Position numbers and translations under genes: made by a program
The notes under the pieces: generated by a model
What the model was told of the DNA's origin: nothing
Seen by the model: only the letters and a program-made list of their open reading frames with translations
Databases searched by the model: none
Part shown: positions 20,536 to 37,071 of the stretch, piece by piece
Position numbering within the stretch: the stretch's first letter is position 1
How the letters are laid out: each line of letters begins with the position of its first letter
Assembly: GCF_000296695.1 (NCBI RefSeq)
Contig: NZ_BAFK01000013.1
Coordinates: 1-64,000 of the forward strand
DNA from: Rheinheimera nanhaiensis E407-8
GTDB lineage: Bacteria > Pseudomonadota > Gammaproteobacteria > Enterobacterales > Alteromonadaceae
DNA length: 64,000 nt
Direction of reading: 5' to 3'

Positions 20536-22824
20536 TTACGCTTGATCAATAAACTCAGACAGAGCAGCCAGGTGCTGCTCTGTTTTTAAGTGAAAGTCGA
20601 CCAGTTGCCGCTCTAACCCCTGCCAGTTTACCGGCTCTTGCTCAAACCGCTTAGCCTGCTGCTGCACCCATAGCAAGCCTACCGATGCCGCTGCGCCTTT
20701 AAGTTTATGCGCCGCCTCCTGAAACTCCTTTGCCTGTTTCTGTAGCGCTGTTTCCATCATCCGATTGATATAACCTGGCAATAACTGAGCAAATAATTGT
20801 GCACTGCGCTTCATTGCATCTTTACCAAGCGACTGCAGATAATCATTCAGGGTGGCACTATCTAACACCTCGGTGTCACTCTGGTTGCTGCTGGGCATCT
20901 GGTGTTGCACTTTTACCGCACTGGGTGAGAACAACTGCGCCAGCAGTTGGTCAAGCCTAGTAGTGTTAATGGGTTTAGCCAGAGCGCCCTCTATCTGTAT
21001 GCCCTCTAATTGCTGCTCCGCTTTACGCACATTAGCGCTAAGTACCACTATAGGTAAGGTTGCCAGGTGCGGCTCCTGACGGATATACTGCGCAATTTGC
21101 TCGCCGCCCATATCGGGTAGCTGCATATCCAGCAGCACTAAATCAATATCATCTTCGGTTTCCAGCAGCGCTATTGCATCTTCACCGGTTTCTGCCAGCA
21201 CGACGGTATGGCCACGCTGTTCCAGCAAGCCGGTGGCGATTTCAGCGTTCAGCGGCACATCTTCTACCAGCAAAATGGTCAATTCCGGACAACTAATCGC
21301 GGGCTGCAGCTCTTGCTGTGCTGCTGCTGTTGGCAGCACCACATTAAAACGGCTGCCCTCGCCACTAATGCTGTTTACGCTAATTTGGCCCTGCATAGCC
21401 TCAACCAGGGCACGTGACACCGACAAGCCAATGCCCGAGCCCATAATGCTTAAGCGGCGCCCGTCGTTAGACTTGTAATACATATCAAAAATGCGCTCTT
21501 GCTCTTGCGCCGCTATACCTATACCGGTATCACTGACTTCAAAGCTAAGCTGATCGCACTGCGCACTTAGCTGACAGCTTAAACTGACGCTGCCCCTGCT
21601 GGTGAACTTAACGGCGTTATTTAGCAGGTTCCACAACACCTGGCGCAAACGGGTTGGGTCAAGCCGCAGATAGACATCATCTGAAGCATCTACCTGCAAG
21701 TTAAATTGCAGGCCCTTTTGCTGACACAACAGCTCGGCAAAGTTAGCAATGTCATTAATAAAGGGTTTAAAGGCGACGCTTTGATAAACAATATCCAGAT
21801 CCTGCCGATCGATTTTATCCAGATCGATAATGTCATTAAAAATATTACCCAGGGTTTCTGCACTGCTAAAAATAGTATTCGCCCAACTGTGCTGCTGCTT
21901 GGTGAGCTTGCTTTCCAGCAAGCGCCGGCTTAACCCCACTATACCGTTTAGCGGTGTGCGTAGCTCATGGCTTAACGTTGCAATAAACTTGCCTTTGTCC
22001 TGATAGGCTTTTTCCAACGCCTGCTCGGCCAGCTTACGCGAAGTAATATCACGACCAAAGCCAAGCAAACCAATGTAACGGCCGTGGCGATCGTAAAATG
22101 GTACCTTGCGCATCTCAAACCACAATACCTGGCCATCCTCTTTAACAAACTCGACATCCAGTGTCAGCTCAGAGGGCTGCATGTGCAGCTCATGCTCGGT
22201 CAGGATAGCGGCCTGTGCACTATCATCAGTGTAAATATCGGCAGGCAAACGGCCAATCAGCTCACTGGCAGGCTTGCCCATAATCGCTTCAAACATTTTA
22301 TTGCAACTGGCAAAGCGGCCAGTTTCATCACGGTAGTAAAACAAGTCGGGGGAGCTGTCGACAATAGATCGGATCAGTAAGCTTTGCTCTTCTAACTCTA
22401 TCTGGGCTTTTTTACGCTCGGCAATTTCCTTACGCAGCTCATCTACAGCACGACGCTTGGCCTGAAAGGCTTTTTTTCGCTCTTCAATTTCAAAGTTAAG
22501 CTGGCGGATATTGTCTTGCATCCCTTCATTTAGCAAACGCTCCTGGTGCGCAGAGTCTTCTAAGTAAGACAAGGCTGCATCCAGATGCAGTACTAAATAA
22601 AACACAATGGCAATAACGGCAGGGCCAAGTAGCAGGGTAATACCCAGTACCGCTTGTACCTGTGGCCAGGCAATACTGTTGTATAGCACCAGATTTAGCG
22701 CAACGCAGGCAAGACCGCTCAGCAGCAATAACAAAAGCTGGCACAACAGTGCCAGCTTTAGCTTGCCCCAGGTGCGAATGCCGTTAGCAAAGCTCCTGAC
22801 CTGGGGGTGAACCGGACCTTGCAT
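20536..22824 (-). CDS. arcB: hybrid sensor kinase ArcB
   Basis: About 762 residues with the full ArcB layout: two transmembrane helices near the N-terminus with a very short periplasmic turn, a coiled linker, PAS ('SPDLFYYRDETGRFASCN', 'MRKVPFYDRHGRYIGLLGF'), HisKA with His286 ('LSHELRTPLNGIVGLS'), HATPase ('NAVKFTSRGSV'), receiver Asp566 ('LLDMQLPDMGG') and a C-terminal Hpt with His706 ('AAHKLKGAAASVG'). The start at 22824 is preferred because upstream residues are unlike ArcB. Cys180 of the E. coli PAS has a counterpart ('ASCN'), but the Cys241 position is Trp. It lies 25 bases after the cyanophycinase gene on the same strand. Confidence 0.93.
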   Translation of the reverse strand: MQGPVHPQVRSFANGIRTWGKLKLALLCQLLLLLLSGLACVALNLVLYNSIAWPQVQAVLGITLLLGPAVIAIVFYLVLHLDAALSYLEDSAHQERLLNEGMQDNIRQLNFEIEERKKAFQAKRRAVDELRKEIAERKKAQIELEEQSLLIRSIVDSSPDLFYYRDETGRFASCNKMFEAIMGKPASELIGRLPADIYTDDSAQAAILTEHELHMQPSELTLDVEFVKEDGQVLWFEMRKVPFYDRHGRYIGLLGFGRDITSRKLAEQALEKAYQDKGKFIATLSHELRTPLNGIVGLSRRLLESKLTKQQHSWANTIFSSAETLGNIFNDIIDLDKIDRQDLDIVYQSVAFKPFINDIANFAELLCQQKGLQFNLQVDASDDVYLRLDPTRLRQVLWNLLNNAVKFTSRGSVSLSCQLSAQCDQLSFEVSDTGIGIAAQEQERIFDMYYKSNDGRRLSIMGSGIGLSVSRALVEAMQGQISVNSISGEGSRFNVVLPTAAAQQELQPAISCPELTILLVEDVPLNAEIATGLLEQRGHTVVLAETGEDAIALLETEDDIDLVLLDMQLPDMGGEQIAQYIRQEPHLATLPIVVLSANVRKAEQQLEGIQIEGALAKPINTTRLDQLLAQLFSPSAVKVQHQMPSSNQSDTEVLDSATLNDYLQSLGKDAMKRSAQLFAQLLPGYINRMMETALQKQAKEFQEAAHKLKGAAASVGLLWVQQQAKRFEQEPVNWQGLERQLVDFHLKTEQHLAALSEFIDQA

Positions 22825-22849: not shown

Positions 22850-24694
22850 TTAGTTTGCCGGGGCCATATCCAGCAAAACGTTGCGGTATGAACAATACTG
22901 CACTTCAGTACCAGCCTGACGGTACAGGCCCTGACGCGCATAAGTGGTCATATCTTTGCTCAGGGTAAGTTGATGCCCTTGCCCCACCCGCACCGCGCGC
23001 CCCTGCGCCTGTCGGCTTTGTGTCAGGCAAAGCAGCTGTGCCAGCTGGCGATAATTATCACGTTCGAACAACTCGCCAGAGCTTAATAGCGGCGACTGGT
23101 TATTATTAGGTGCAAACTTCCAGTCGGCAAAGCGGGTACGCATTACACCGTCTTTAATTTCCAGCATGTCATCACGGGTTAAATAATGCGTACTGACTTT
23201 TTCAATCTGGCTGGCACTGCCCTCACCGCTGCTTTGCGCTTGTTGTATATCAGCAACAAAGACACCGGCTTCACCCAGTACCGCCATTTTGACTTCAGGA
23301 GCATTTTCGGCCCGGTCAAAACCGACTAATAAGGCCGTATTTTCGTCAATACCAAAACCAAAACGGGTTTGCGTATCATGTTGCAACCGGACTAACCGCG
23401 CCTGGCGGCCGCGTTCAGAGAAATGCGTATCCAGTACACCCCAGTTGAACAAGCCAAGGCCACCCGCACCGCTGTAGGTTAGATGGTTTTCGCCCAGGCC
23501 GTTAGCACAGCTCTGGTCTTTATCACAGCCACTTTGTGGTGCGGGCAAATCAAAAGCACCAAATTGCATAGCGCTGTAGCTGTCACCATTTGTAATCATC
23601 GGCGTCTTGCGTCCCTGATAGCTCCCACCTGCCATCACAGCACTACCGGCACTGGTGCCGGCTACAATGATCTGGCCGGCTGCCAGCATCGACTCCAGCT
23701 GCTTCAGCTCCGCCGTTGCCGTGCCATCGTCCTGACGAAATGCTTGTAATGTCAGGCTTTGGTCTCCACCATTAATGAAAACCGCGTCCGAACGACGAAT
23801 AAGCTCTACCGCAGCTGTTGTACCCTGTTGGCAAAACCGTTCAAACTGCTGCATTAAATCTGGGTATACCCGCGCTCGCTGATAAGTACCATGATAAGCC
23901 GCCAGGTATTGTGGCAACTGCTCACATGATGGCGAATTATTGGCTTTGTTTTGCTGCGCTGCCTGATAGGCTGCATTGATCGGTAACCAGGTTACCTCGG
24001 CGCCTGCTTCGCTAAACAGATTGGTGTACATATCCACCGCAGCGAAGGGGTCGCGCCCTGAAGCAGTGACTACCAGCAGTCGCGGCTTACGCTGCGGGCC
24101 ACTAACCTGCTGCGCTAAATCGACAATTTTACGCACAATCTCTACGGTAAAGGCATCGCTGGTTTGTGCCAAATTAGCAAATTCTCGTTGCCGCGTAGTC
24201 GCGCGGCGGCTGCCAGTGTTTGCACTTGCCATAATTTGCAGCTGGTCGAGCACAAAATTACGCTCACGATCGGTCAAAGCGGCATAATTAGTCCGGCCCG
24301 ACACCCAAATACCGTCTATTTCTATCTCGGCGCCACGCCACTGCCGCAGCAACTCGCGTTCTGTCGTAGGTTCACCGGCCTGGCGGCTGCGGATAAACTC
24401 AAGCAGCGCAAGCGTTTGTTGCTGCTCAATCACCCGCTCTTCGCCCCAGAAACTGCTATCAGCAATATTGGCCAGGTGCTGCTCCGACAACAAATACTGC
24501 TCGCCAGACTTCGCAGCCGCAGTGAAGGTATCAGCCGCAGAGCAATAGCGATTGCTCACCGAAGAGCATATTTGCATACCACCGCCCACCAATACCATAG
24601 AGTATTCGGGCAGCTTTCTTTCGCCGTGAACATTGGCAGCCGAGGCTGAACTGGCCAGTAGAGCCGCAGAAAGGTAAAAACTTAGTGATCTCAT
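22850..24694 (-). CDS. secreted cyanophycinase (peptidase family S51)
   Basis: 614 residues with a signal peptide ('MRSLSFYLSAALLASSASA'). It is much longer than intracellular CphB (about 270-300), as are extracellular cyanophycinases. S51 hallmarks: 'LLVVTASGRDPF', 'AVFINGGDQSLTLQ', nucleophile Ser348 in 'AGTSAGSAVMAGG', 'WGVLDTHFSERGRQARL' and 'FGIDENTALLVG'. It cleaves cyanophycin (multi-L-arginyl-poly-L-aspartate) to beta-Asp-Arg dipeptides. The start at 24694 follows AAGAG and gives a proper signal peptide; an upstream extension of 25 codons does not. It is divergent from the receptor-permease-dipeptidase genes that would use the product. arcB follows 25 bases later. Confidence 0.88.
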   Translation of the reverse strand: MRSLSFYLSAALLASSASAANVHGERKLPEYSMVLVGGGMQICSSVSNRYCSAADTFTAAAKSGEQYLLSEQHLANIADSSFWGEERVIEQQQTLALLEFIRSRQAGEPTTERELLRQWRGAEIEIDGIWVSGRTNYAALTDRERNFVLDQLQIMASANTGSRRATTRQREFANLAQTSDAFTVEIVRKIVDLAQQVSGPQRKPRLLVVTASGRDPFAAVDMYTNLFSEAGAEVTWLPINAAYQAAQQNKANNSPSCEQLPQYLAAYHGTYQRARVYPDLMQQFERFCQQGTTAAVELIRRSDAVFINGGDQSLTLQAFRQDDGTATAELKQLESMLAAGQIIVAGTSAGSAVMAGGSYQGRKTPMITNGDSYSAMQFGAFDLPAPQSGCDKDQSCANGLGENHLTYSGAGGLGLFNWGVLDTHFSERGRQARLVRLQHDTQTRFGFGIDENTALLVGFDRAENAPEVKMAVLGEAGVFVADIQQAQSSGEGSASQIEKVSTHYLTRDDMLEIKDGVMRTRFADWKFAPNNNQSPLLSSGELFERDNYRQLAQLLCLTQSRQAQGRAVRVGQGHQLTLSKDMTTYARQGLYRQAGTEVQYCSYRNVLLDMAPAN

Positions 24695-25059
24695 TATTCT
24701 CTTTCTTATCGTAAGCGCAGATAGTTGCCTGGGCCTGCTGCCCGGCGCGGAATAAAATTTAATTGGCATAGATTATCCTGTATTGACTTCTTTGCCAATT
24801 AGCAGTACTTCTAATAGTGCTGTTAAATTCATTTAACGTTCATTTTCCGGTAACGATATGCTGAAAAAAGCCTTCGCGCTAAGTTCGTATCATTACTCGT
24901 CTTACTACCTGTCGGAGTGGTTTAACGAGTAGACACATGTCAGGCACTAAATCGTGTCTGGCAGGGCTATTCCTGCAAACCAATAACTCAAATTAATAAT
25001 GATAAGTCAGGCCTGGCATATGTTGCCGTGCGCCTGGCCAAGTAAAGACAGGTATTTTT
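24695..25059. other. divergent control region of the cyanophycin locus
   Basis: 365 bases without a gene between cyanophycinase and its TonB receptor, so it should hold both promoters. It contains two widely spaced inverted repeats (24760-24801 and 24894-24931), each with a 24-base spacer. On the minus strand TTGGCA and GATAAT are 15 bases apart inside the first repeat. No clear sigma70 promoter is visible for the receptor. Confidence 0.5.
24760..24801. promoter_or_regulatory. candidate operator, TAATTGGCA inverted repeat
   Basis: A perfect nine-base inverted repeat: TAATTGGCA at 24760-24768 and TGCCAATTA at 24793-24801. The half-site centres are 33 bases apart, about three helical turns. 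It lies 65-110 bases upstream of the cyanophycinase start and encloses its likely -10. Inference: binding site of a dimeric or tetrameric regulator of the locus; no regulator gene is next to it. Confidence 0.45.
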
Positions 25060-27993
25060 ATGCACAAGTTATCTCCTTTAGCGCTGGCTGTTGCCGGCAG
25101 CTTTTTCGCTATGCCATTGGCTTTTGCCGCCGAAGAAGTGGCCAAAGAAGAACAAAAGATTGAAAAAATCGAAGTGACCGGCTCACGCATTAAAGGCGTC
25201 GATCTGGAAGGCACCCAGCCGCTGGTTGTTATCTCGGCTGATGATATTAAAAACTCTGGTGCAAACTCAGTATATGAGTTGCTGCAAGATTTAGGGCAGG
25301 TGCGTGGTGGTACAGGCACTTTTTCTACCTCAGAAAGCGGTGCAACTTCAACATCTACCCCAGCTGGCCAGGCAGCTGCGTCACTGCGCGGGCTTGGCCC
25401 GTCTTCAACGTTAACCCTGATTAACGGCCGTCGCGTTGCAGCATCATCGTTTGCAGCAGGCACACAAAATTTTGTTGATATTAATAGTATCCCCCTTGCC
25501 GCCATTGAACGGGTAGAAGTGCTGGCTACAGGCGCATCAGCCATTTATGGTGCCGATGCCGTGGCCGGTGTTATCAACTACATCCTGAAAAAAGATTATG
25601 AGGGGGCCGAGGTTACACTGTCTTATGCCAACAGCACGGCGTCGTCCAATGATGCCACTGTTAACGCCAACCTGCTATTTGGAACCAATATTGCCGGCGG
25701 CAACTTAACGCTGTTCGCCGACCTTTTTGATCGTGAAGGCTATATGGCGTCAGATCGCGACTTTACCAAACAGCCGGCCTTACAAAGTAATTACTCGTAT
25801 TTGCCCAAGCTGCGTGATGGTGTCAACATCAACTACTACTCTGCACGCAGCGGCAATGAAATTGGCAACCCGAATTGTACCAGCCCGCTGGTAACAACCG
25901 AGTTTGGCGAGGAAATATGTGCTTATTATGCCAATCAGGATGATCAGCTGGAAAGCCCATTTGAAAGCCAATCAGCCGGCTTTATTTACACTAAAGATAT
26001 TAATGGCTTAGTGTGGAATACTGACTTTTTCTTCAGCACAACCAAGTCAACTGCCATATCGTCACCAGCGCCGATAGAACAGGTCGAGCAAATTAACCCT
26101 GATCACGGTGCCTGGGTGCCAGAAACGGCATTAGACATCTACCCGGCAGACTACGTAGACTTCTTGTATGATGAGCTGTGGATAGACCCGTTTGACACCT
26201 TAGCCGGCCAGGAATTGTGGGGCTTTCAATACAGTGCCCGCTTCAATGATCCACGTACTATTGAAAATAAAACCGACTCTTTCCGCCTAACCAGCTCACT
26301 GGGCGGTGATATTGCTAATTGGCAATGGGAATCGGCCATTCTGCTGTCGCAATCCAAATCTAAACAGAAAGCCATTGCAGGTATCTACAATCGTTATAAA
26401 TACAGTGCTTTGGTACATGGCGAACTTTGCAGCGACGGCAGTATCGCCAATTTTGACGAGGATATGGGCTTAAGCTGCTCTTCAGGCCAGTTACTGGCGG
26501 CATTTAACCCTCTGCTACAGAATGACGCAGCCAATAATGCCTTACTGTCAAACGCACAAGAAGTGCCGACACGGGATGGTAAGAGCACGGTTTATGGCTG
26601 GGACTTACGCTTTAGCGGCGACCTGATGGAGTTTAATGATGACTTTATCCGTGCTGCCTTTGGTATCGAAGCCCGCAAAGAAGAAATTACCGATACACCG
26701 TCGTTAAATGCCAGAGCACGACCAGAAAATCGTTATTTGGTTGACGTATTTGGTTTTGGCTCCAGCTTGTCAGAAGCAGACCGTACGCAAGCAGCGGCTT
26801 TTGCCGAAATTTATGCCCCGCTAAGCGATACTGTTGAATTACAACTTGCTGGCCGTTACGACTACTATGACGACTTTGGCAGTACGTTTAACCCTAAAGT
26901 AGGCCTGACCTGGCGCCCGCATGACAGCTTAGCCATTCGCGGCTCTTGGGCAACCTCGTTCCGCGCGCCCTCTTTAACTCAGGCAGGGGTAAAATTAAGA
27001 ACAACCACAGCGACCTATGATTGTAGTGCTAATCAAACCGTTGCTGATTTGTACTGTGAGGGCTTTGGTGATGTGCGCCGGCCGAATGTGCTGGAGCTGG
27101 GCAACCCGGATTTACAAGCTGAGACCTCAGAATCAGTCAGTTTTGGTTTTGCCTGGAGCCCAACCGACAATACTACCCTAACCGTAGACTACTGGCAGTT
27201 TAGCCACGAGAAGCTGGTCGACACAGATCTGACGGCTATGCTCGCCAGAACTGCAACAGATGCCTCTGTGCGCCATTGTGGTTTAGTGCCTGAAGGTGAA
27301 ACTGGTATCGCTTATAACCCGGATCTGTGCCTGGTAACTGATGAAGCTGGCCTGACGGTGGAAGATGAAGGCGCCAATATGGCACAGATCCTGGATGCCT
27401 GGGTAGCCTTTGACGAGCCACGTTTTGCCGAGCTGCCGCTTCTGCGCGATCATGTTATTCAGTTAGAGAACGTCGGCCAGCAAGATGTGAAAGGTGTCGA
27501 TCTGCGTTTTTCACATACACTTGACTTTGCAGGTGGCCGCTTAGGCCTCGATGCTGACTGGACACACTATGTCAGCTTTGAGCGTAATAAAGCCGGCTCT
27601 GATGAAATTGAATCACTTATTGGCACCTTCCGCTACCCGGAAAACATTGCCAGTGCACGTATTTCCTGGAGCGGTGAAGCGGTTTATTTAGGGCTGACAG
27701 CACTTTATACCTCGTCATATCAAGATGACATTAGCAGACTAAGAGGCCGTAACATTGACGAGCTGACTGATCTTGGTTTGCTGGATGAGAATGGCGAGCG
27801 TGAGGTTTCAGCCTGGACAACACTGCGTGCCAATATTGGTTATGACTTTGAAAATGCTTCATTAAACTTCACTGTCGATAACCTGCTGGATCGTGACCCA
27901 CCGGCGGTTTACGGCACAGCACGTGGCTTTGATTCTATTAACCACGACGCTTTTGGCCGTAACTATCGTGTATCCTTTAGCTACTTCTTTTAA
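25060..27993 (+). CDS. TonB-dependent receptor of the cyanophycin locus
   Basis: 977 residues. A signal peptide ends near 'MPLAFAAEE'; a TonB-box-like region precedes 'EKIEVTGSRIKGVDLEG'. The plug has 'LRGLGPSSTLTLINGRRV', 'IPLAAIERVEVLATGASAIYGADAVAGVINYI', and the barrel ends in the aromatic 'RVSFSYFF'. This is the usual size and style of receptors for peptides or oligosaccharides rather than siderophores. It is divergent from cyanophycinase and followed by a permease and an isoaspartyl dipeptidase. Inference: uptake of cyanophycin fragments or beta-Asp-Arg across the outer membrane. Confidence 0.9.
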   Translation: MHKLSPLALAVAGSFFAMPLAFAAEEVAKEEQKIEKIEVTGSRIKGVDLEGTQPLVVISADDIKNSGANSVYELLQDLGQVRGGTGTFSTSESGATSTSTPAGQAAASLRGLGPSSTLTLINGRRVAASSFAAGTQNFVDINSIPLAAIERVEVLATGASAIYGADAVAGVINYILKKDYEGAEVTLSYANSTASSNDATVNANLLFGTNIAGGNLTLFADLFDREGYMASDRDFTKQPALQSNYSYLPKLRDGVNINYYSARSGNEIGNPNCTSPLVTTEFGEEICAYYANQDDQLESPFESQSAGFIYTKDINGLVWNTDFFFSTTKSTAISSPAPIEQVEQINPDHGAWVPETALDIYPADYVDFLYDELWIDPFDTLAGQELWGFQYSARFNDPRTIENKTDSFRLTSSLGGDIANWQWESAILLSQSKSKQKAIAGIYNRYKYSALVHGELCSDGSIANFDEDMGLSCSSGQLLAAFNPLLQNDAANNALLSNAQEVPTRDGKSTVYGWDLRFSGDLMEFNDDFIRAAFGIEARKEEITDTPSLNARARPENRYLVDVFGFGSSLSEADRTQAAAFAEIYAPLSDTVELQLAGRYDYYDDFGSTFNPKVGLTWRPHDSLAIRGSWATSFRAPSLTQAGVKLRTTTATYDCSANQTVADLYCEGFGDVRRPNVLELGNPDLQAETSESVSFGFAWSPTDNTTLTVDYWQFSHEKLVDTDLTAMLARTATDASVRHCGLVPEGETGIAYNPDLCLVTDEAGLTVEDEGANMAQILDAWVAFDEPRFAELPLLRDHVIQLENVGQQDVKGVDLRFSHTLDFAGGRLGLDADWTHYVSFERNKAGSDEIESLIGTFRYPENIASARISWSGEAVYLGLTALYTSSYQDDISRLRGRNIDELTDLGLLDENGEREVSAWTTLRANIGYDFENASLNFTVDNLLDRDPPAVYGTARGFDSINHDAFGRNYRVSFSYFF

Positions 27994-28003
27994 TTAGTAC
28001 CGA

Positions 28004-28034
28004 GCGGGCGTAAGTAGATAACACTTATGCCCGC
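28004..28034 (+). other. intercistronic hairpin between the receptor and permease genes
   Basis: A 12-base-pair stem (GCGGGCGTAAGT / ACTTATGCCCGC, one G-T pair) with a seven-base loop, lying about 10 bases after the receptor stop and about 30 before the permease start. No T tract follows. Such hairpins often lower downstream expression or protect the upstream message, giving a receptor-rich, permease-poor ratio. Confidence 0.55.
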
Positions 28035-28066
28035 TTACCTTTATCGGCTACGACAAGGTTTACACT

Positions 28067-29551
28067 ATGGCTAATCAAGTAAGACAACCGGTATCAATGC
28101 CGGATGCCTTTATCATTCTGTTTTTTGTCATGATACTGGCCGCAATCGCATCGCATCTGGTGCCTGCCGGCTCTTTTACTATGCTGGAGCCGGCGCCTGC
28201 AGCAGAAGGCGCTGCCAAACTGAAAAGTAAAATCGACCCGAACAGCTTTACGCTGCACCATGACGCTGAGCAAGGTGCGCCGCTATTTGCCGAAGGCGGC
28301 GGTATCGGCTTTTTTAACTATGCCTTTGAAGGCCTGGTATCCGGGGATAAATGGGGCTCGGCCGTTGGCGTTATTGCTTTTATTCTGCTAACCGGTGGCG
28401 CCTTTGGCATCATTATGAAAACTGGCGCTATTCATAACGGCATTCTGGCCTTGATAGACAAAACCAAACGCATGGAATTTTTGTTTATTCCGCTGATGTT
28501 TGGCCTGTTCTCGTTAGGCGGCGCCGTATTCGGTATGGGCGAAGAGGCGATTGCCTTTTGTATCGTGCTACTGCCACTGATGTTAGCACTGGGCTACGAT
28601 GCCATTACCACGGTATTGGTAACCTATGTGGCCACCCAAATCGGTTTTGCTACCTCCTGGATGAACCCGTTTAATGTTGCTATTGCTCAGGGTATAGCGG
28701 AAATTCCGCTGTTGTCTGGCAGTGATCTTCGTATTGCCATGTGGGTGGTCTTTACCCTGTTTGGCATTATTTTTACCATGCGATATGCCGCCAAAATTAA
28801 AGCCAACCCTGAGCTGTCACTGAGTTTTGCCAGCGATCAAAAGCTGCGTTCAGAGCAAAGTGACAGTGCAAAAAACCAGTACAATGGCCTGGACTCGATC
28901 ATCCTGCTGGCATTTTTTGCCGGCCTGGTGTGGATTATCTGGGGCGTAACAGTACGCCAGTACTACATACCGGAAATTGCCAGCCAGTTTTTTACTATCG
29001 GCGTGGTGATAGCCATTATCGCGGTAATTGGTAAGCGTTTTAGCATGAATGACGCCGCAGACGGCTTTAAGCATGGTGCTGCTGAGCTGTTGCCGGCTGC
29101 GCTGATTGTCGGTATGGCCAAAGGCATAGTGCTATTGCTTGGTGGCGACAGCCCTGAATCGCCGTCGGTATTAAACACGCTGCTGTATTACAGTGGCCAG
29201 GCGCTGGATGGCTTGCCGGCGTATTTATCGGCCTGGCTGATGCTGGTAATCCAATCGGTGATTAACTTCTTTGTCGCCTCAGGCTCAGGCCAGGCAGCGC
29301 TGACAATGCCACTTATTGCCCCACTGGCCGATTTAGTCGGACTTTCGCGACAAATTGCGGTATTAGCTTTTCAGCTTGGTGATGGTTTAACTAACTGCAT
29401 TATACCTACCTCAGCGGCGTTGATCGGCTGTTTGGGTGTGGTGCGGGTAGATTGGACAGTCTGGCTGCGTTTTGTCTGGAAATTACAGCTGTGTCTGTTT
29501 GCGCTGGCCAGCGCCTTTATGTTTATCGCCGTTGCTATTGCATATCAATAA
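28067..29551 (+). CDS. YfcC-family inner-membrane permease
   Basis: A 494-residue integral membrane protein with about 12 helices, belonging to the YfcC/DcuC-like group of the ion-transporter superfamily (recognisable by 'IAFILLTGGAFGIIMKTGAI', 'PLMFGLFSLGGAVFGMGEEAIAF' in separate stretches, and 'VASGSGQAALTMPLIAPLADL'). Relatives are annotated as C4-dicarboxylate, arginine/ornithine or basic amino-acid/peptide carriers. Position between the receptor and the dipeptidase suggests import of beta-Asp-Arg or of its parts. The substrate is inferred from context only. Confidence 0.88.
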   Translation: MANQVRQPVSMPDAFIILFFVMILAAIASHLVPAGSFTMLEPAPAAEGAAKLKSKIDPNSFTLHHDAEQGAPLFAEGGGIGFFNYAFEGLVSGDKWGSAVGVIAFILLTGGAFGIIMKTGAIHNGILALIDKTKRMEFLFIPLMFGLFSLGGAVFGMGEEAIAFCIVLLPLMLALGYDAITTVLVTYVATQIGFATSWMNPFNVAIAQGIAEIPLLSGSDLRIAMWVVFTLFGIIFTMRYAAKIKANPELSLSFASDQKLRSEQSDSAKNQYNGLDSIILLAFFAGLVWIIWGVTVRQYYIPEIASQFFTIGVVIAIIAVIGKRFSMNDAADGFKHGAAELLPAALIVGMAKGIVLLLGGDSPESPSVLNTLLYYSGQALDGLPAYLSAWLMLVIQSVINFFVASGSGQAALTMPLIAPLADLVGLSRQIAVLAFQLGDGLTNCIIPTSAALIGCLGVVRVDWTVWLRFVWKLQLCLFALASAFMFIAVAIAYQ

Positions 29552-29578
29552 CAGCGCGAGCTGTTTAAGGTAACTATT

Positions 29579-30760
29579 TTGAACAACATTATTTTAATAA
29601 AAAATGCCGAACTGCTGGCCCCGCACAGTATTGGTAAAAAAGACGTAGTACTGGCAGGCAATACTATTGCCGCTATTGGTGAAGACTTTAATCTGGCAGG
29701 CTCCAACCTGCCGGTAACGGTAATAGACGGCAGCGGCTGTTATCTGACGCCGGGTTTTGTCGATTCGCTGGTGCATTTCATCGGCGGTGGCGGTGAAGGC
29801 GGTTTTGCTACCCGCACGCCGGAAATGCAATTAACCGATGCCACCTTAGGCGGCGTTACTACCGCTATTGGCGTACTGGGCACTGATGCCACCACCCGCA
29901 CCCTCACTAACCTTTTAGCCAAAGCGCATGCGCTGGAAACCGAAGGTATTAGTACTTACTGCCATACCGGCTCTTATGAGATCCCCTGTCGCACCCTGAC
30001 CGGCAATATCACTGATGATTTGATCCTGATTGATAAGTTTATCGGTGTCGGTGAAATTGCCATCAGTGATCACCGCTCTTCACAGCCCACCACAGATGAA
30101 ATTCGCAAAGTGGCGGCAGCAGCACGGGTTGGCGGTATTCTATCGGGTAAAAGCGGCGTGGTTAGTGTGCATATGGGCGCCGGCGAGCGTATTTTGCAGC
30201 CGATATATCAGGCGGTGGCCGGTACCGAGCTAAAACTCAAGCAGTTCTACCCTACCCATATGAACCGCAACCGCCGGGTGTTTGAAGCCGGTTTAGAGTT
30301 TGCCACTAAAGGCGGCGTGATTGACTTTACCACCAGCACTACCGACTTTGACTTAAAACATGGCGAAGTGGCTGCTGCGGCGGCACTGGCTGAAGCGCTG
30401 GCCTTTGGTATCAAAGCCATGCAGCTGACACTTAGCTCAGATGGGAATGCCAGCCTGCCGATTTATAACGACGAAGGCGAGCTGTTAGGCTTGCAGGTAG
30501 GCAGTGTGCAAAGCTTATATCAGGCAGCTCGTGAAGCAGTATTAACGCACAAGGTGGCCCTAGCCGATGCCATTTGCAGTATTACCGCAGCCCCTGCTGC
30601 AGTGCTGGGCTTAAAGCAAAAAGGCCGTTTAGCGCCACAGTTGGATGCCGATCTGGTGCTGCTGCGCCGCGATGACTTAGCTATTGATAGCGTGATAGCC
30701 AAAGGCAAGTTACTGGTGCAACAGGGTAAAGCCCTGGTAAAAGGCACCTTTGAGCGTTAA
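29579..30760 (+). CDS. iadA: isoaspartyl dipeptidase (beta-aspartyl-peptidase)
   Basis: A 393-residue amidohydrolase matching IadA (E. coli 390). Conserved parts: 'LVHFIGGGGEGGFATRTPE', 'VLGTDATTR', 'AISDHRSSQP', 'VSVHMGAGE', 'PTHMNRN', 'LSSDGNASLP' and 'GKALVKGTFE'. It hydrolyses beta-aspartyl dipeptides, the last step of cyanophycin breakdown (beta-Asp-Arg to Asp and Arg). The start is a TTG at 29579 with AAGG eight bases upstream. Odd point: the first metal motif, HVH in E. coli, reads L64-V65-H66, so one ligand His is replaced; Glu159 sits near the position of the bridging carboxylated lysine. It could be a subfamily with a different metal site. Confidence 0.88.
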   Translation: MNNIILIKNAELLAPHSIGKKDVVLAGNTIAAIGEDFNLAGSNLPVTVIDGSGCYLTPGFVDSLVHFIGGGGEGGFATRTPEMQLTDATLGGVTTAIGVLGTDATTRTLTNLLAKAHALETEGISTYCHTGSYEIPCRTLTGNITDDLILIDKFIGVGEIAISDHRSSQPTTDEIRKVAAAARVGGILSGKSGVVSVHMGAGERILQPIYQAVAGTELKLKQFYPTHMNRNRRVFEAGLEFATKGGVIDFTTSTTDFDLKHGEVAAAAALAEALAFGIKAMQLTLSSDGNASLPIYNDEGELLGLQVGSVQSLYQAAREAVLTHKVALADAICSITAAPAAVLGLKQKGRLAPQLDADLVLLRRDDLAIDSVIAKGKLLVQQGKALVKGTFER

Positions 30761-30845: not shown

Positions 30846-30874
30846 AAAAAAGCTGCCTTGGCAGCTTTTTTTAT
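30846..30874 (+). terminator. intrinsic terminator after iadA
   Basis: AAAAAAGCTGCC-TT-GGCAGCTTTTTTT: a 12-base-pair stem counting the A-T pairs, with a T run. It ends the receptor-permease-iadA transcript. The flanking A run also makes it a possible terminator on the minus strand. Confidence 0.9.
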
Positions 30875-31188: not shown

Positions 31189-34100
31189 ATGGCGTTGTAC
31201 CAACACAGTCAGGCAAGAGAAAACTGTGGCTTTGGTCTGATTGCCCATCTGGAGGGCGCAGCCAGCCACCGCATCGTCAGAACCGCCATTAATGGCTTAG
31301 ACCGTATGCAGCATCGCGGCGGCATTTCTGCCGACGGTAAAACCGGCGACGGCTGCGGCTTATTGATGCAAAAGCCCGACAGTTTTTTTCGTGCTATCGC
31401 CGAAGAAAACGGCTGGAACCTAGCGAAAAAGTACGGTGTCGGTATGATTTTCCTAAGCCAGGATCCGGTAAAAGCGGCACTGGCAAAAAAAATTATCGCC
31501 CAGGAAATTGCCCGCGAGACACTTACCTTGGTTGCCTGGCGCACGGTGCCGGTAGATAGCAGTGTATTGGGCCCCTTGGCGCTTAGCTCAATGCCGCAGA
31601 TTGAACAGGTAATTGTCAACGCGCCGCATGGCTGGGGCGATCATGACCTGGAGCGCCGTTTATATATGGTGCGCCGCCGCATTGAAAAACAGCTTAGCGA
31701 TGATGCCGACTTTTATATTCCCAGCTTCTCATCGTTAGTTACCGTATTTAAAGGCCTGATGATGCCGGCCGATTTGCCGCGCTATTATCTGGACTTAGCC
31801 GATATCCGCATGGAAACCGCCATTTGCGTGTTTCACCAGCGTTTTTCTACCAATACCATGCCGCGCTGGCAGCTGGCGCAGCCGTTTCGCTTTTTAGCGC
31901 ATAACGGTGAAATTAATACCATTACCGGTAACCGCCAGTGGGCCCGCGCCCGCCAGTATAAATTTGCTTCGCCGTTATTACCCGATCTGCAGGACGCTGC
32001 GCCTTTTGTCGGTCAAAGCGGCTCGGATTCCAGCTCGCTGGATAATATGCTCGAATTGCTGTTAGCCGGCGGCATGGACTTATTCCGCGCTATGCGTTTA
32101 TTAGTGCCGCCGGCCTGGCAGGGCAACCGGGTAATGGACGACAACCTAAAAGCCTTTTATGAATTTAACTCCATGCATATGGAGCCGTGGGACGGCCCGG
32201 CCGGTATCGTAATGACTAACGGTCAGCATGTGGCCTGTAATTTAGACCGTAACGGCCTGCGCCCGGCGCGCTTTGTGATCACGCGCGATAAACTGATTAC
32301 GCTGGCGTCAGAAGTGGGCATTTGGGATTACACCCCGGATGAAGTAGTAGAAAAAGGCCGCGTTGGCCCCGGTGAAATGCTGGCGGTGGATACCACCAGT
32401 GGTGAGATTTGGCGCTCAGATAAAATTGATGCCGATTTAATGGCGCGTCACCCGTACCGCGACTGGCTGAACAGCAATGTGCAGCGCTTGGTGCCGTATG
32501 AGAAATACGAAACGGATTTGATCGGTAAACGCGTGTTTACCGATGATGAAATGCTGGTGCTGCATAAGCTGTTTAACTACAGCTATGAAGAAATTGATCA
32601 GGTGATGACGGTACTGGCCAAAGATGGTCAGGAAGCGGTTGGCTCTATGGGTGATGACACGCCGATGGCGGTGCTGTCACGTAAACCTCGCACGCTGTAC
32701 GATTATTTCCGCCAGCAGTTTGCTCAGGTGACTAACCCGCCGATAGACCCTTTGCGTGAAGCGCACGTGATGTCGCTGGCCACCAGTATCGGCCGCGAGC
32801 ATAACGTATTTAAAGAAACCGCCGGCTATGCGCGGCGCATTCAGTTTGAATCGCCGGTGATGATGTACTCGGACTTAAAGCAGCTGAAACAGGCCGACGA
32901 GCAGTACTACAAACATCAGATCTTCTCATTAAACTTTGACCCTGCGCAGCTTAGCCTGCAGCAAGCGGTTACCACGCTATGCCAGGATGTGATCTCTGCC
33001 GTGCGCGATAACCAGGTGGTATTGGTAATATTAACCGACCGGCGTATTGAGCAAGGCAAACTGCCAATACCGGCAGCGATGGCGGTCGGTGCGGTGCAAC
33101 ATGCGTTGGTGAATGCCCAGCTGCGCTGCGATTCCAACATTATTGTTGAAACCGCCACCGCGCGTGACCCACATCATTTCGCCGTGTTAATTGGCCTTGG
33201 CGCTACCGGTATTTACCCGTTTTTAGCCTATGAAACGGTAGAGCAGCTGGTGGAAAAAGGCGTGATTAACTTAACCGCGCGGCAGGCGGTGCTGAATTAC
33301 CGTAAAGGCATTAACAAAGGCCTGTACAAAATCATGTCGAAAATGGGCATTTCCACGGTGGCCAGCTATCGCTGCTCTAACCTGTTTGAAGCCGTCGGCA
33401 TTGATAAAGCCGTGATGCAGCAATGCTTTGCCGATATCCCGTCGCGTTTGGGCGGCGCCGGTTTTGCTGATTTTCAGCAGGATATTCAGCAGCTGGCCAA
33501 TGTCGCCTGGCTTAAACGCAAGCCGCTGAACCACGGTGGTTTATTAAAATACGTGCACGATGGCGAGTACCACGCCTATAACCCGGATGTAGTACAAACG
33601 CTGCAAAAAGCGGTGCGCTCTGGCAAGTACGAGGATTATCAGCAGTACAGCCGCATCGTCAACGAGCGCCCGGTAGCGCATTTACGTGACTTATTTAAAC
33701 TAAATGCCGCCGCCGCGGTGCCGCTGGAGCAGGTAGAAAGCGAGGACAAGCTGTACCCACGCTTTGACAGTGCCGCTATGTCGATAGGCGCGCTTAGCCC
33801 GGAAGCACACGAAGCCCTGGCGATAGCGATGAACCGTTTGGGCGGGCGCTCTAACTCGGGTGAAGGTGGCGAAGATCCGCGCCGCTTTGGCACCGAGAAA
33901 AACTCGAAAATTAAGCAGGTCGCCTCCGGCCGCTTTGGCGTGACACCGCATTATCTGGTGAATGCGGAAGTTATCCAGATTAAAGTGGCGCAAGGTGCCA
34001 AGCCCGGCGAAGGTGGCCAGCTGCCGGGTGAAAAAGTGACCGCCGAAATTGCCCGCCTGCGTTATTCAGTGCCGGGTGTAACCTTAATTTCACCGCCGCC

Positions 34101-35649
34101 GCACCACGATATTTACTCGATTGAAGATTTAGCCCAGCTGATCTTCGATTTAAAACAGGTCAATCCACAGGCGCTGATCTCCGTCAAACTGGTATCCGAG
34201 CCGGGTATCGGCACCATCGCCACCGGTGTGGCTAAAGCCTATGCCGATCTCATTACCGTATCCGGTTACGACGGCGGCACCGGCGCCAGCCCGCTAACCT
34301 CAGTAAAATATGCCGGCAGCCCGTGGGAGTTAGGTCTTGCCGAGGTGCATCAGGCGCTGGTCGAGAACGGCCTGCGTGACCGGGTGCGCTTACAGGTAGA
34401 TGGTGGCTTAAAAACCGGCCTTGATGTGATTAAAGCCGCTATTTTAGGCGCCGAAAGCTTCGGCTTTGGTACCGGCCCTATGGTGGCACTGGGTTGTAAG
34501 TTCCTGCGCATTTGCCATTTAAATAACTGCGCCACCGGCGTGGCGACGCAAGACGCCACCCTGAGGCGCGATCACTTTACCGGCCTGCCCGAAATGGTGA
34601 TGAACTACTTTAAGTTCTTAGCCTATGAAGTGCGCGAATTAATGGCGCAGCTGGGGGTAACACAACTTACCGAGCTGATTGGCCGCACTGATTTATTAAG
34701 CGTCAAAGACAGCGAAACGCAAAAGCAGGCCAAACTGGAGTTAACACCAATATTGCAAGCCAGCGGCGTTGCTTCAGACAAAGCGCTGTACTGTGTGCAA
34801 AACAATACGCCGTTTGACGAAGGTAAGCTGAATCAGGAGCTGTTAGCGCGCTGCAAGCAGATGGTACTGCATAAAAGCGGTGGCCAGCTAAGTGTAAGTA
34901 TCCGCAATACCGACCGCTCGGTGGGCGCGGCGCTGTCGGGCTTTATTGCCCGCCAGCACGGTAACCAGGGTATGGCGACCGATCCTATCCGCATCCGCTT
35001 AACCGGCACCGCCGGCCAGAGCTTTGGCGTATGGAACGCCGGCGGCCTGCATATGTCGCTACAGGGCGATGCCAACGACTATGTCGGCAAAGGCATGACC
35101 GGCGGTATGCTGGCGATTTACCCGGCCAAGGGCGCCGCCTTTGCCAAAAACGGCTTTACCATTGCCGGTAATACCTGCTTATACGGCGCTACAGGCGGCC
35201 GTTTATACGCGGCCGGTCAGGTCGGCGAGCGTTTTGCCGTGCGTAACTCCGGCGCGTTGGCGGTGGTAGAAGGCACCGGCGATAACTGCTGCGAATATAT
35301 GACCGGCGGCGTGGTGGTGGTGCTGGGCTGCACCGGGGTGAACTTTGGTGCCGGTATGACCGGTGGCTTTGCCTATCTTTTAGATGAGCAGGACGATTTA
35401 GCGCTTAGGTTAAACCCGGAGCTGGTCGAGGCGCTGGACGTGACTACGCCAATACTGCAGGAGCACCTGCGTAGCTTGTTACACCAGCACGTCGAGGAAA
35501 CCGGCAGCGACAAAGCGCAGAAGATCTTAAATGACTTTGGCAGCTACTTAAGTAAATTCAAGCTGGTTAAACCGAAAACCAGCGATGTAAACACCTTGCT
35601 GGGACACCGCGCACGCTCGTCAGCCGAGCTGCGGGTACAGGCGATGTAG
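31189..35649 (+). CDS. gltB: glutamate synthase (NADPH) large subunit
   Basis: 1486 residues, the normal size. The N-terminal glutaminase is a class II amidotransferase with Cys13 ('ARENCGFGLIAH'), exposed after removal of a 12-residue leader. Then come the central domain, the FMN-binding synthase domain ('LRLQVDGGLKTGLDV' region) and the [3Fe-4S] ligands C-x5-C-x4-C in 'CKFLRICHLNNCATGV'. The C-terminal GxGxG helix domain follows ('GMTGGMLAIYP', 'GMTGGFAYLL'). It makes two glutamates from glutamine and 2-oxoglutarate together with GltD. A very strong ribosome-binding site precedes it. Proximity to the cyanophycin locus fits nitrogen assimilation. Confidence 0.97.
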   Translation: MALYQHSQARENCGFGLIAHLEGAASHRIVRTAINGLDRMQHRGGISADGKTGDGCGLLMQKPDSFFRAIAEENGWNLAKKYGVGMIFLSQDPVKAALAKKIIAQEIARETLTLVAWRTVPVDSSVLGPLALSSMPQIEQVIVNAPHGWGDHDLERRLYMVRRRIEKQLSDDADFYIPSFSSLVTVFKGLMMPADLPRYYLDLADIRMETAICVFHQRFSTNTMPRWQLAQPFRFLAHNGEINTITGNRQWARARQYKFASPLLPDLQDAAPFVGQSGSDSSSLDNMLELLLAGGMDLFRAMRLLVPPAWQGNRVMDDNLKAFYEFNSMHMEPWDGPAGIVMTNGQHVACNLDRNGLRPARFVITRDKLITLASEVGIWDYTPDEVVEKGRVGPGEMLAVDTTSGEIWRSDKIDADLMARHPYRDWLNSNVQRLVPYEKYETDLIGKRVFTDDEMLVLHKLFNYSYEEIDQVMTVLAKDGQEAVGSMGDDTPMAVLSRKPRTLYDYFRQQFAQVTNPPIDPLREAHVMSLATSIGREHNVFKETAGYARRIQFESPVMMYSDLKQLKQADEQYYKHQIFSLNFDPAQLSLQQAVTTLCQDVISAVRDNQVVLVILTDRRIEQGKLPIPAAMAVGAVQHALVNAQLRCDSNIIVETATARDPHHFAVLIGLGATGIYPFLAYETVEQLVEKGVINLTARQAVLNYRKGINKGLYKIMSKMGISTVASYRCSNLFEAVGIDKAVMQQCFADIPSRLGGAGFADFQQDIQQLANVAWLKRKPLNHGGLLKYVHDGEYHAYNPDVVQTLQKAVRSGKYEDYQQYSRIVNERPVAHLRDLFKLNAAAAVPLEQVESEDKLYPRFDSAAMSIGALSPEAHEALAIAMNRLGGRSNSGEGGEDPRRFGTEKNSKIKQVASGRFGVTPHYLVNAEVIQIKVAQGAKPGEGGQLPGEKVTAEIARLRYSVPGVTLISPPPHHDIYSIEDLAQLIFDLKQVNPQALISVKLVSEPGIGTIATGVAKAYADLITVSGYDGGTGASPLTSVKYAGSPWELGLAEVHQALVENGLRDRVRLQVDGGLKTGLDVIKAAILGAESFGFGTGPMVALGCKFLRICHLNNCATGVATQDATLRRDHFTGLPEMVMNYFKFLAYEVRELMAQLGVTQLTELIGRTDLLSVKDSETQKQAKLELTPILQASGVASDKALYCVQNNTPFDEGKLNQELLARCKQMVLHKSGGQLSVSIRNTDRSVGAALSGFIARQHGNQGMATDPIRIRLTGTAGQSFGVWNAGGLHMSLQGDANDYVGKGMTGGMLAIYPAKGAAFAKNGFTIAGNTCLYGATGGRLYAAGQVGERFAVRNSGALAVVEGTGDNCCEYMTGGVVVVLGCTGVNFGAGMTGGFAYLLDEQDDLALRLNPELVEALDVTTPILQEHLRSLLHQHVEETGSDKAQKILNDFGSYLSKFKLVKPKTSDVNTLLGHRARSSAELRVQAM

Positions 35650-37071
<1,422 letters not shown>

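Follow-up and report, generated by a model that had tools for sequence, protein, structure and literature searches.

A probable cyanophycin scavenging locus of Alteromonadales and its conserved candidate leader peptide

We analyzed a 64,000-nucleotide (nt) stretch of Rheinheimera nanhaiensis E407-8 (contig NZ_BAFK01000013.1, positions 1 to 64,000; hereafter, the window) and found what is probably a cyanophycin scavenging locus, shared by Alteromonadales that mostly lack the synthetase CphA and controlled by a leader peptide. The locus consists of a gene for a secreted S51 peptidase, divergent from three colinear genes for a TonB-dependent outer-membrane receptor (TBDT), a YfcC-type permease, and an IadA-family isoaspartyl dipeptidase. 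Its gene content makes it very likely that beta-Asp-Arg of the cyanophycin type is scavenged. Cyanobacteria store nitrogen as cyanophycin; how heterotrophs import and sense its pieces is, to our knowledge, little described. A first-pass annotation of the same DNA was right in outline but over-claimed the novelty of the TonB step and a role for the flanking gltBD genes; it overlooked the open reading frame (ORF) of the leader, as well as an arcB-like flanking gene and two further S51 genes of exported type in the genome.

The divergent arrangement was borne out by ORF calls and profile searches, all four genes lying where the first-pass annotation had placed them, and a single terminator does close the TBDT-YfcC-IadA operon (Table 1), although the simple terminator scan did not list this hairpin. 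The S51 ORF in full spans 22850–24769 on the minus strand; its start is likelier at 24694, because alignments with the nearest relatives begin at that Met, which is preceded by a GAAAGAG stretch. The window genome is 4.0 Mb long, and its nearest named S51 relatives come from Rheinheimera, with at most 80% identity. A profile search of this genome found no cyanophycin synthetase over the cut-offs and no match to the CphA N-terminal family.

We surveyed 147 genomes of the same family as the window genome for co-occurrence of these genes. An S51 match was present in 75 genomes, with long homologues at 72 places in 63 genomes, a count that excludes weaker matches (15 cphB-type places and seven of 424–467 amino acids [aa]). 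YfcC tracked the long S51 closely: 47 of the 48 places over the NF008611 cut-off were within 8 kb of a long S51 and 0/48 were beside cphB, the gene of the short cyanophycinase. S51 and YfcC occurred together in 46 of the 147 genomes, bearing 24 genus codes. The first-pass annotation had named a failure of receptor and permease to co-occur with cyanophycinase as grounds for giving up its account, and such a failure was not what we saw. IadA places over the cut-off were distributed more widely, with 46/65 near a long S51, 15/65 near cphB, and 4/65 near neither; 15 of the 65 were also near cphA. The synthetase gene itself was found in 16/147 genomes, 15 of them with iadA nearby and 0/16 with an over-cut-off yfcC within 10 kb. 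These counts suggest that IadA accompanies cyanophycinases, whereas YfcC accompanies only the secreted long S51, as expected of an importer.

Gene order around the long S51 homologues supported the same grouping. We fetched 71 neighborhoods (window excluded), and the full set of S51, TBDT, YfcC, and IadA that the first-pass annotation had described was present in 38; the remainder held S51 with TBDT and YfcC (three), S51 with YfcC and IadA (six), S51 with IadA (one), or S51 alone (23). YfcC was thus present in 47 of 71, accompanied by IadA in 44 and by an adjacent TBDT in 41. Among 76 named loci, which overlap the 147-genome survey and are not an independent set, 68 had YfcC, and TBDT was missing from seven of these 68. 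Their genera include Rheinheimera, Arsukibacterium, Alkalimonas, Alishewanella, Thalassotalea, Colwellia, Bowmanella, Lacimicrobium, Alteromonas, Pseudoalteromonas, Idiomarina, Ferrimonas, and Shewanella. The suggestion that nitrogen flows on to the adjacent gltBD did not hold up: gltB was found in 8/47 neighborhoods with YfcC versus 7/24 without it, so that gltB appears to follow the old place of S51 and not the pathway. We dropped this adjacency as a functional signal.

The S51 protein of the window is most likely a secreted CphE-like cyanophycinase, as judged from its export signal, active site, and predicted fold. Its N terminus reads by eye as a Sec signal (MRSLSFYLSAALLASSASA-A), and it matches PF03575 at 34.0 bits (cut-off 23.9). 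In a 36-row alignment, the triad S348-H424-E451 and the pocket residues Q312, D422, T423, R428, R430, and R433 are invariant; the protein also has six invariant Cys. The excerpted text of PMC3235067 names Gln101, Asp172, Gln173, Arg178, Arg180, and Arg183 as the critical residues of CphB and states that CphE of Pseudomonas alcaligenes, an active extracellular enzyme, carries Thr in place of Gln173. By alignment, the window S51 retains Q101, D172, R178, R180, and R183 and has Thr for Gln173, as CphE does; the match of triad and pocket therefore points to a CphE-like enzyme. We had considered the Gln173-to-Thr exchange as a sign of a non-cyanophycinase and ruled this out, since an active enzyme has the same Thr. 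An AlphaFold2 model with the alignment as input had a predicted local distance difference test (pLDDT) score of 92.1. Its nine best PDB chains were cyanophycinases (7uqw, 3en0, and 7uqv), with template modeling (TM) scores of 0.75–0.81 by target length at 18%–22% identity; three of the nine were from 7uqv, an entry titled pseudo-CphB, and the next matches were peptidase/dipeptidase E.

The permease and the dipeptidase were both assigned above family cut-offs: YfcC scored 716.6 bits against NF008611 (equivalog cut-off 500; residues 11–494 matched), and IadA scored 498.3 bits against TIGR01975 (cut-off 331.25), with no signal peptide seen by eye. In this IadA, Leu64-x-His66 aligns with the His-x-His (HxH) of 1onw, the Escherichia coli IadA, a motif that we take to be metal-binding. 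Leu occupied the first-His position in 47/47 scored locus IadAs (loci L043–L112) and in all 66 motif matches of the named-locus set, and His occupied it in 17/17 scored IadAs from cphA clusters or elsewhere (one further partial copy, L195, was left out of these); the switch is one change on the tree. The locus IadA retains E159, H198, H227, and D288, and a one-metal center of the NagA type would presumably fit. We regard it as a putatively active IadA-family variant (LxH).

Plug and barrel domains were matched in the TBDT, which is the loosest part of the route. The place that the first-pass annotation had given it was upheld in part: it was adjacent in all but six of the 47 YfcC loci, with only 31%–51% identity to the window receptor in ten loci. 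It was 49%–51% identical in L123, L126, L127, L133, L134, and L138 and 31%–32% in L155, L171, L173, and L187, against 58%–93% for YfcC in the same ten named loci. Even within Rheinheimera, the receptor was far more diverged from that of the window than were YfcC and IadA of the same loci, a pattern that looks like receptor swapping.

Together, these proteins would form a route. Outside the cytoplasm, the Sec-exported S51 would release beta-Asp-Arg by trimming cyanophycin or oligomers of it; in loci that have the TonB receptor, this would carry pieces across the outer membrane, YfcC would take beta-Asp-Arg across the inner membrane, and cytoplasmic IadA would split it into Asp and Arg. The substrate, and the direction and ligand of each transport step, are our proposals, and the three-gene hypothesis (TBDT, YfcC, and LxH IadA) can be tested in culturable bacteria.

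The divergent intergenic region of the locus contains a conserved short ORF. Of 30 Rheinheimera-group intergenic regions, 27 contain GAGTGGTTTAACGA exactly, which is the 3' end of a 24-aa ORF, MLKKAFALSSYHYSSYYLSEWFNE followed by a stop (Table 1). The block common to these regions is this leader ORF rather than a palindrome; a common palindromic operator was rejected, as comparison of the two best palindromes from each region turned up none in common. Leaders of relatives mostly end in [YF][YH]LSEW[FW][ND]E and a stop. A search with a degenerate pattern for LSEWF[N/D]E and a TAA or TAG stop, allowing no mismatch, matched 66 places in 46 of the 147 genomes, and the reversed pattern had 0 matches in the same genomes. 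All 66 leaders could be placed: 45 adjoin a long-S51 locus, 19 accompany another S51 gene, and two go with TBDT units. By this pattern search, the association of the leader with these genes is exclusive within the 147 genomes. Among 369 genomes of the class, the leader was found in two only, both of the same family, and in 0/366 outside the family.

Allowing F or W and a TGA stop, we found 47 leaders in the window and the 71 neighborhoods, all of them at most 900 nt upstream of a same-strand TBDT (42) or YfcC (five). The leader was present in 44/47 neighborhoods with YfcC and 0/24 without, and in named loci in 68/68 with YfcC and 2/8 without, one of the two being a 3.8-kb contig. It was kept with the unit where the TBDT was lost (L047, L048, L116, and L124) or the S51 was lost (G111 and L192), and where the operon was split each half had its own copy (L081 and L083). 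It also heads a separate gene encoding a PPC domain and S51. After leaving out five of 26 rows (tandem copies or fragments), we counted 21 such PPC-S51 genes in 20 genomes, 19 with the exact leader and two with a variant ending DYHLSEWFDL before the stop. The window genome has one of these genes (on C28), with the leader MATCLCSADYAQLWVARPANLHACATDYHLSEWFDE and a stop ∼110 nt upstream and, by eye, the motifs GGDQ, GTSAG, and DTHFKQRDR. The leader matches no known family in Rfam, NCBIfam, or Pfam, and the literature searched held no relevant paper with an LSEWF motif and, by title and abstract, none on this leader peptide.

We compared 104 distinct leaders. Leu and Ser each use all six codons, Trp is TGG in 104/104, and conservation is strongest at the C terminus beside the UAG/UAA stop. 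The stops were TAG in 77, TAA in 27, and TGA in none. Since 21 of the 104 came from loci fetched for the leader or IadA, mostly through the pattern that admits no stop but TAA or TAG, a fairer tally takes only the remaining 83, from S51-fetched loci (61 TAG, 22 TAA, and 0 TGA); the 888 ORFs of the 71 neighborhoods gave a baseline of 567 TAA, 169 TGA, and 152 TAG. The C/G ratio after the leader stop was 2.36 for nt 0–20, 0.82 for nt 20–40, and 2.04 for nt 40–60, with a baseline of 1.06 in 387 other 5' regions, and the best 40-nt C excess was higher for leaders (Mann–Whitney P = 1e-18, kinship not corrected for). A hairpin follows the stop (mean z of -2.1 for the following 50 nt). An intrinsic terminator at this site was discarded, with 0/104 hairpins followed by at least six T in eight nt. 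An RNA stem inside the leader was paired in 97.7% of cells across 22 Rheinheimera-group rows, where a single pair had changed at both positions. Over 85 leaders, pairing came to only 68% of the outer-stem cells, and a conserved RNA stem was set aside as the main signal. Across the aligned leaders, conservation of the peptide is a wider signal than the stem.

The position and conservation of the ORF argue strongly that it acts in cis as a regulatory peptide. In excerpts from the sources, TnaC stalls at its stop codon with a Rho utilization (rut) site immediately after it (PMC10941005), SpeFL arrests just ahead of its stop codon while the C terminus is the most conserved part of MdtU (PMC7815308), and CruR, at the head of a TBDT operon, works through Rho (PMC9426467). 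Like TnaC, SpeFL, and CruR, our ORF is short and heads a catabolic or uptake operon, and it shows the stop-proximal conservation and the C-rich, G-poor spacer of TnaC/SpeFL-type leaders, TnaC also having its rut site by the stop. Unlike them, it has LSEW[FW][ND]E at its very end, a UAG or UAA stop, and two separate units, and no sequence kinship to them is shown. The TnaC family has W12, D16, I19, P24, and a UGA stop (PMC10941005, in part), whereas the window leader ends LSEWFNE-UAG and has no Pro.

Taking these precedents with the stop-proximal conservation and the C-rich spacer, we propose a mechanism of stalling and Rho termination, for which we judge the chances to be slightly below even. 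Transcription of TBDT-YfcC-IadA would pass through the 24-aa leader; upon sensing a ligand (our guess is beta-Asp-Arg or Arg), the ribosome would stall at the leader UAG with LSEWFNE in the tunnel and would cover the C-rich Rho entry site, such that transcription continues. Without ligand, the ribosome would depart and Rho would terminate. Going further, LSEW[FW][ND]E might define a new family of ligand-sensing arrest leaders devoted to one substrate: at a UAG stop, the nascent chains would sense a cyanophycin-derived molecule (beta-Asp-Arg or arginine) and thereby switch on the uptake operon together with another secreted depolymerase in Alteromonadales, an idea that we put forward tentatively and do not favor outright. 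If true, the window's genome would hold two unlinked members of a nascent-peptide regulon. Being confined to these genes in the 147 genomes, the leader offers a sequence tag for the whole regulon as well as a candidate arrest peptide.

That the ORF is instead a stand-alone small protein or a codon-supply attenuator, and not a ligand-sensing arrest peptide, would agree with an RNA structure that is conserved only in part and with a ligand and arrest role that are predicted only. We nevertheless find it unlikely. The leader stays 5' of whichever gene heads the unit, be it the TBDT, YfcC where the TBDT is gone (L047, L048, and L116), both halves of a split operon, or the separate S51; its conservation peaks next to the stop; and neither Arg nor Asp codons occur in a run.

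Several observations weigh against cyanophycin scavenging under leader control. The window S51 scored 93.9 bits against the TIGR02069 cyanophycinase profile, below the equivalog cut-off of 126.6, and the four locus relatives scanned were likewise under it. The identification made in the first-pass annotation thus stands on triad, pocket, and fold but fails on this profile, and we therefore filed the protein as CphE-like and not as a TIGR02069 cyanophycinase. An S51 that does pass (171.3 bits) lies elsewhere in the window genome, in an unrelated neighborhood. The locus IadA lacks one metal-ligand His and does not have the HxH of 1onw. Of the 47 YfcC loci, six have no TBDT, three have no leader, and three have no IadA gene (L075, L079, and L080, whose genomes G093, G011, and G060 carry IadA elsewhere), and four of the 46 genomes with S51 and YfcC together carry cphA elsewhere. 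The hairpin after the leader has little covariation support (54/500 shuffles as high), the leader's own stem holds in the Rheinheimera group only, and the leaders, with their stop codons and C-rich spacers, were drawn from kindred genomes and do not count as independent cases. Finally, IadAs of cyanophycin clusters are described as promiscuous for beta-aspartyl dipeptides in the excerpted text of PMC10206079, and the substrate could therefore be wider than cyanophycin.

This last point bears on the possibility that the locus scavenges beta-aspartyl (isoaspartyl) peptides generally, for example, from aged protein, with cyanophycin as at most one source. The named hosts are heterotrophs, many of them protein feeders, which fits such a diet, as do the broad specificity kept by the IadAs of cyanophycin clusters and the subthreshold S51. 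The S51 pocket, however, equals that of CphE at every listed residue, three Arg included, IadA in this bacterial family otherwise occurs beside CphA/CphB (15/65), and cyanophycinase is described as a specialized exo-enzyme (PMC10206079, in part). We consider the general-peptide explanation improbable, and cyanophycin remains the substrate that we prefer. It is similarly doubtful that YfcC is an exporter or an Arg-ornithine-type antiporter that removes surplus amino acid once another system has imported the dipeptide: the NCBI family name "putative basic amino acid antiporter YfcC" favors this, but YfcC follows the secreted enzyme most strictly of all partners (47/48) and is absent from the cphA storage clusters (0/16 within 10 kb), which also release Arg.

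The concept of such a locus is known, and the window carries a gammaproteobacterial variant of it. In the study by Ben Hania et al., the locus of Salinivirga cyanobacteriivorans L21-Spi-D4 reportedly has a SusC/D transport complex like that of a polysaccharide utilization locus (PUL), for which outer-membrane import was proposed. From that locus as reported, the present one differs in its plain and optional TBDT, YfcC, long S51 with a CphE pocket, LxH IadA, and leader. The two are alike, as far as the excerpted accounts go, in clustering cyanophycinase, iadA, and a transporter without cphA; here, a CphE-like S51 is clustered with IadA and a transporter in a cphA-less genome. Ben Hania et al. 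(2017) described theirs as a "cyanophycin utilization locus," as reported in parts of PMC10206079 and PMC6243061, and Tang et al. (2012) (PMC3400609, in part) counted cyanophycin among TBDT substrates on the basis of a cyanophycinase gene paired with a TBDT. The TonB step, presented as new or little described in the first-pass annotation, is thus preceded by both Tang et al. (PMC3400609) and Ben Hania et al. (PMC10206079). The pair in question, from the alphaproteobacterium Citromicrobium sp. JLT1363, resembles the present locus in that receptor and cyanophycinase are taken as cyanophycin uptake; the excerpted text of PMC3400609 mentions no permease, dipeptidase, or leader.

The window S51 resembles CphE of P. 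alcaligenes (PMC3235067, in part) and P. anguilliseptica in its Sec signal, Ser-His-Glu triad, and Gln/Asp/Thr/His/Arg/Arg/Arg pocket. It differs in length (614 vs. ∼420 aa), in extra regions flanking the S51 core, in its six invariant Cys, and in its subthreshold TIGR02069 score. Excerpted reports note a cyanophycinase in Thalassotalea (PMC7564069) and a secreted one in Pseudoalteromonas tunicata (PMC2536512). The literature searched held nothing joining YfcC with isoaspartyl, and within it three elements are new: the constancy of YfcC as permease, the LxH form of the locus IadA, and the leader peptide.

Table 1. Features of the proposed scavenging locus, its flanks, and two further S51 genes of the same genome (window positions unless a contig or locus handle is given)
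Feature	Coordinates	Strand	Remarks
arcB-like gene	20536..22824	-	Flanking, context only; start set from shorter relative in L044
S51 peptidase, predicted secreted, long, CphE-like cyanophycinase	22850..24694	-	614 aa; ORF openable to 24769
Conserved leader ORF	24858..24932	+	24 aa, MLKKAFALSSYHYSSYYLSEWFNE-UAG; proposed nascent-peptide switch; divergent intergenic region
C-rich, G-poor spacer after leader stop	24933..24992	+	Putatively rut-like; contains 9-bp hairpin
9-bp hairpin in spacer	24939-24947 paired with 24954-24962
TBDT	25060..27993	+	977 aa; would import beta-Asp-Arg or pieces of cyanophycin
YfcC-type permease, DcuC family	28067..29551	+	Proposed inner-membrane beta-Asp-Arg importer
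IadA-family isoaspartyl dipeptidase, LxH variant	29579..30760	+	Leu64 replaces first His of HxH; TTG start
Intrinsic terminator of TBDT-YfcC-IadA operon	30846..30871	+	AAAAAAGCTGC-CTTG-GCAGCTTTTTT, -13.0 kcal/mol
gltB and gltD	31189..37071	+	Flanking, context only; identified by sequence
Second S51 gene, PPC domain and S51	C28:17553-18950 (= L115:9351-10751)	-	466 aa; leader L115:10860-10970 (-)
Lipoprotein-like S51 cyanophycinase (predicted)	L114:9298-10584 (contig C46)	+	428 aa; DQHF motif; TIGR02069 171.3 bits, over cut-off

The arcB-like flanking gene scored 785 bits against NF008302, under the cut-off of 838. Elsewhere, the window genome encodes a PepE-like S51 and two others in which export signals can be seen by eye. 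Because one of the two is a profile-positive cyanophycinase with a lipoprotein-like signal, the window S51 need not be the sole depolymerase. Neither leader copy of the genome lies on the contig of that gene (C46). Near it are genes that look by eye like RHS repeats with differing C-terminal ends (L114:3092-7075 and 7648-8409), with a VgrG-like fragment alongside.

A number of long S51 proteins have lost catalytic residues while their frames remain open (15/68), and none of the 15 is near YfcC. Catalytic Ser and/or His is lost in L044, L045, L050, L059, L061, L089, L101, and L104–L111, and some of these stripped proteins share a genome with an intact copy (G010, G059, G072, G097, and G108). 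They are possibly retained pseudoenzymes; along with the LxH IadA, they offer handles on enzyme evolution in this pathway. Leaving out four of 72 rows (L065, L084, and the partial L112 and L113), the triad was intact in 46/46 S51 with YfcC versus 7/22 without (Fisher P = 3.8e-10, raw). This link was not significant when phylogeny was respected: in seven independent pairs on supported branches, an average of 4.3 went the same way and 0 the opposite way (sign test, median P = 0.125). Ratios of nonsynonymous to synonymous change (dN/dS) were not usable for the S51 copies, with dS infinite in 14 of 17 pairs and 1.5–2.9 in three. Synonymous change was saturated, and dN was low, at 0.13–0.35, in 16/17 pairs and 0.83 for L059-L061; not all 17 pairs were of dead copies.

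In L044, L045, and L050, the space between arcB and gltB that the whole locus fills in the window is taken by a stripped S51. L054, with a 78-aa iadA remnant (6619-6855) directly before an S51 with intact triad (6856-8808) and its TBDT and YfcC orthologue gone, reads as a decaying locus.

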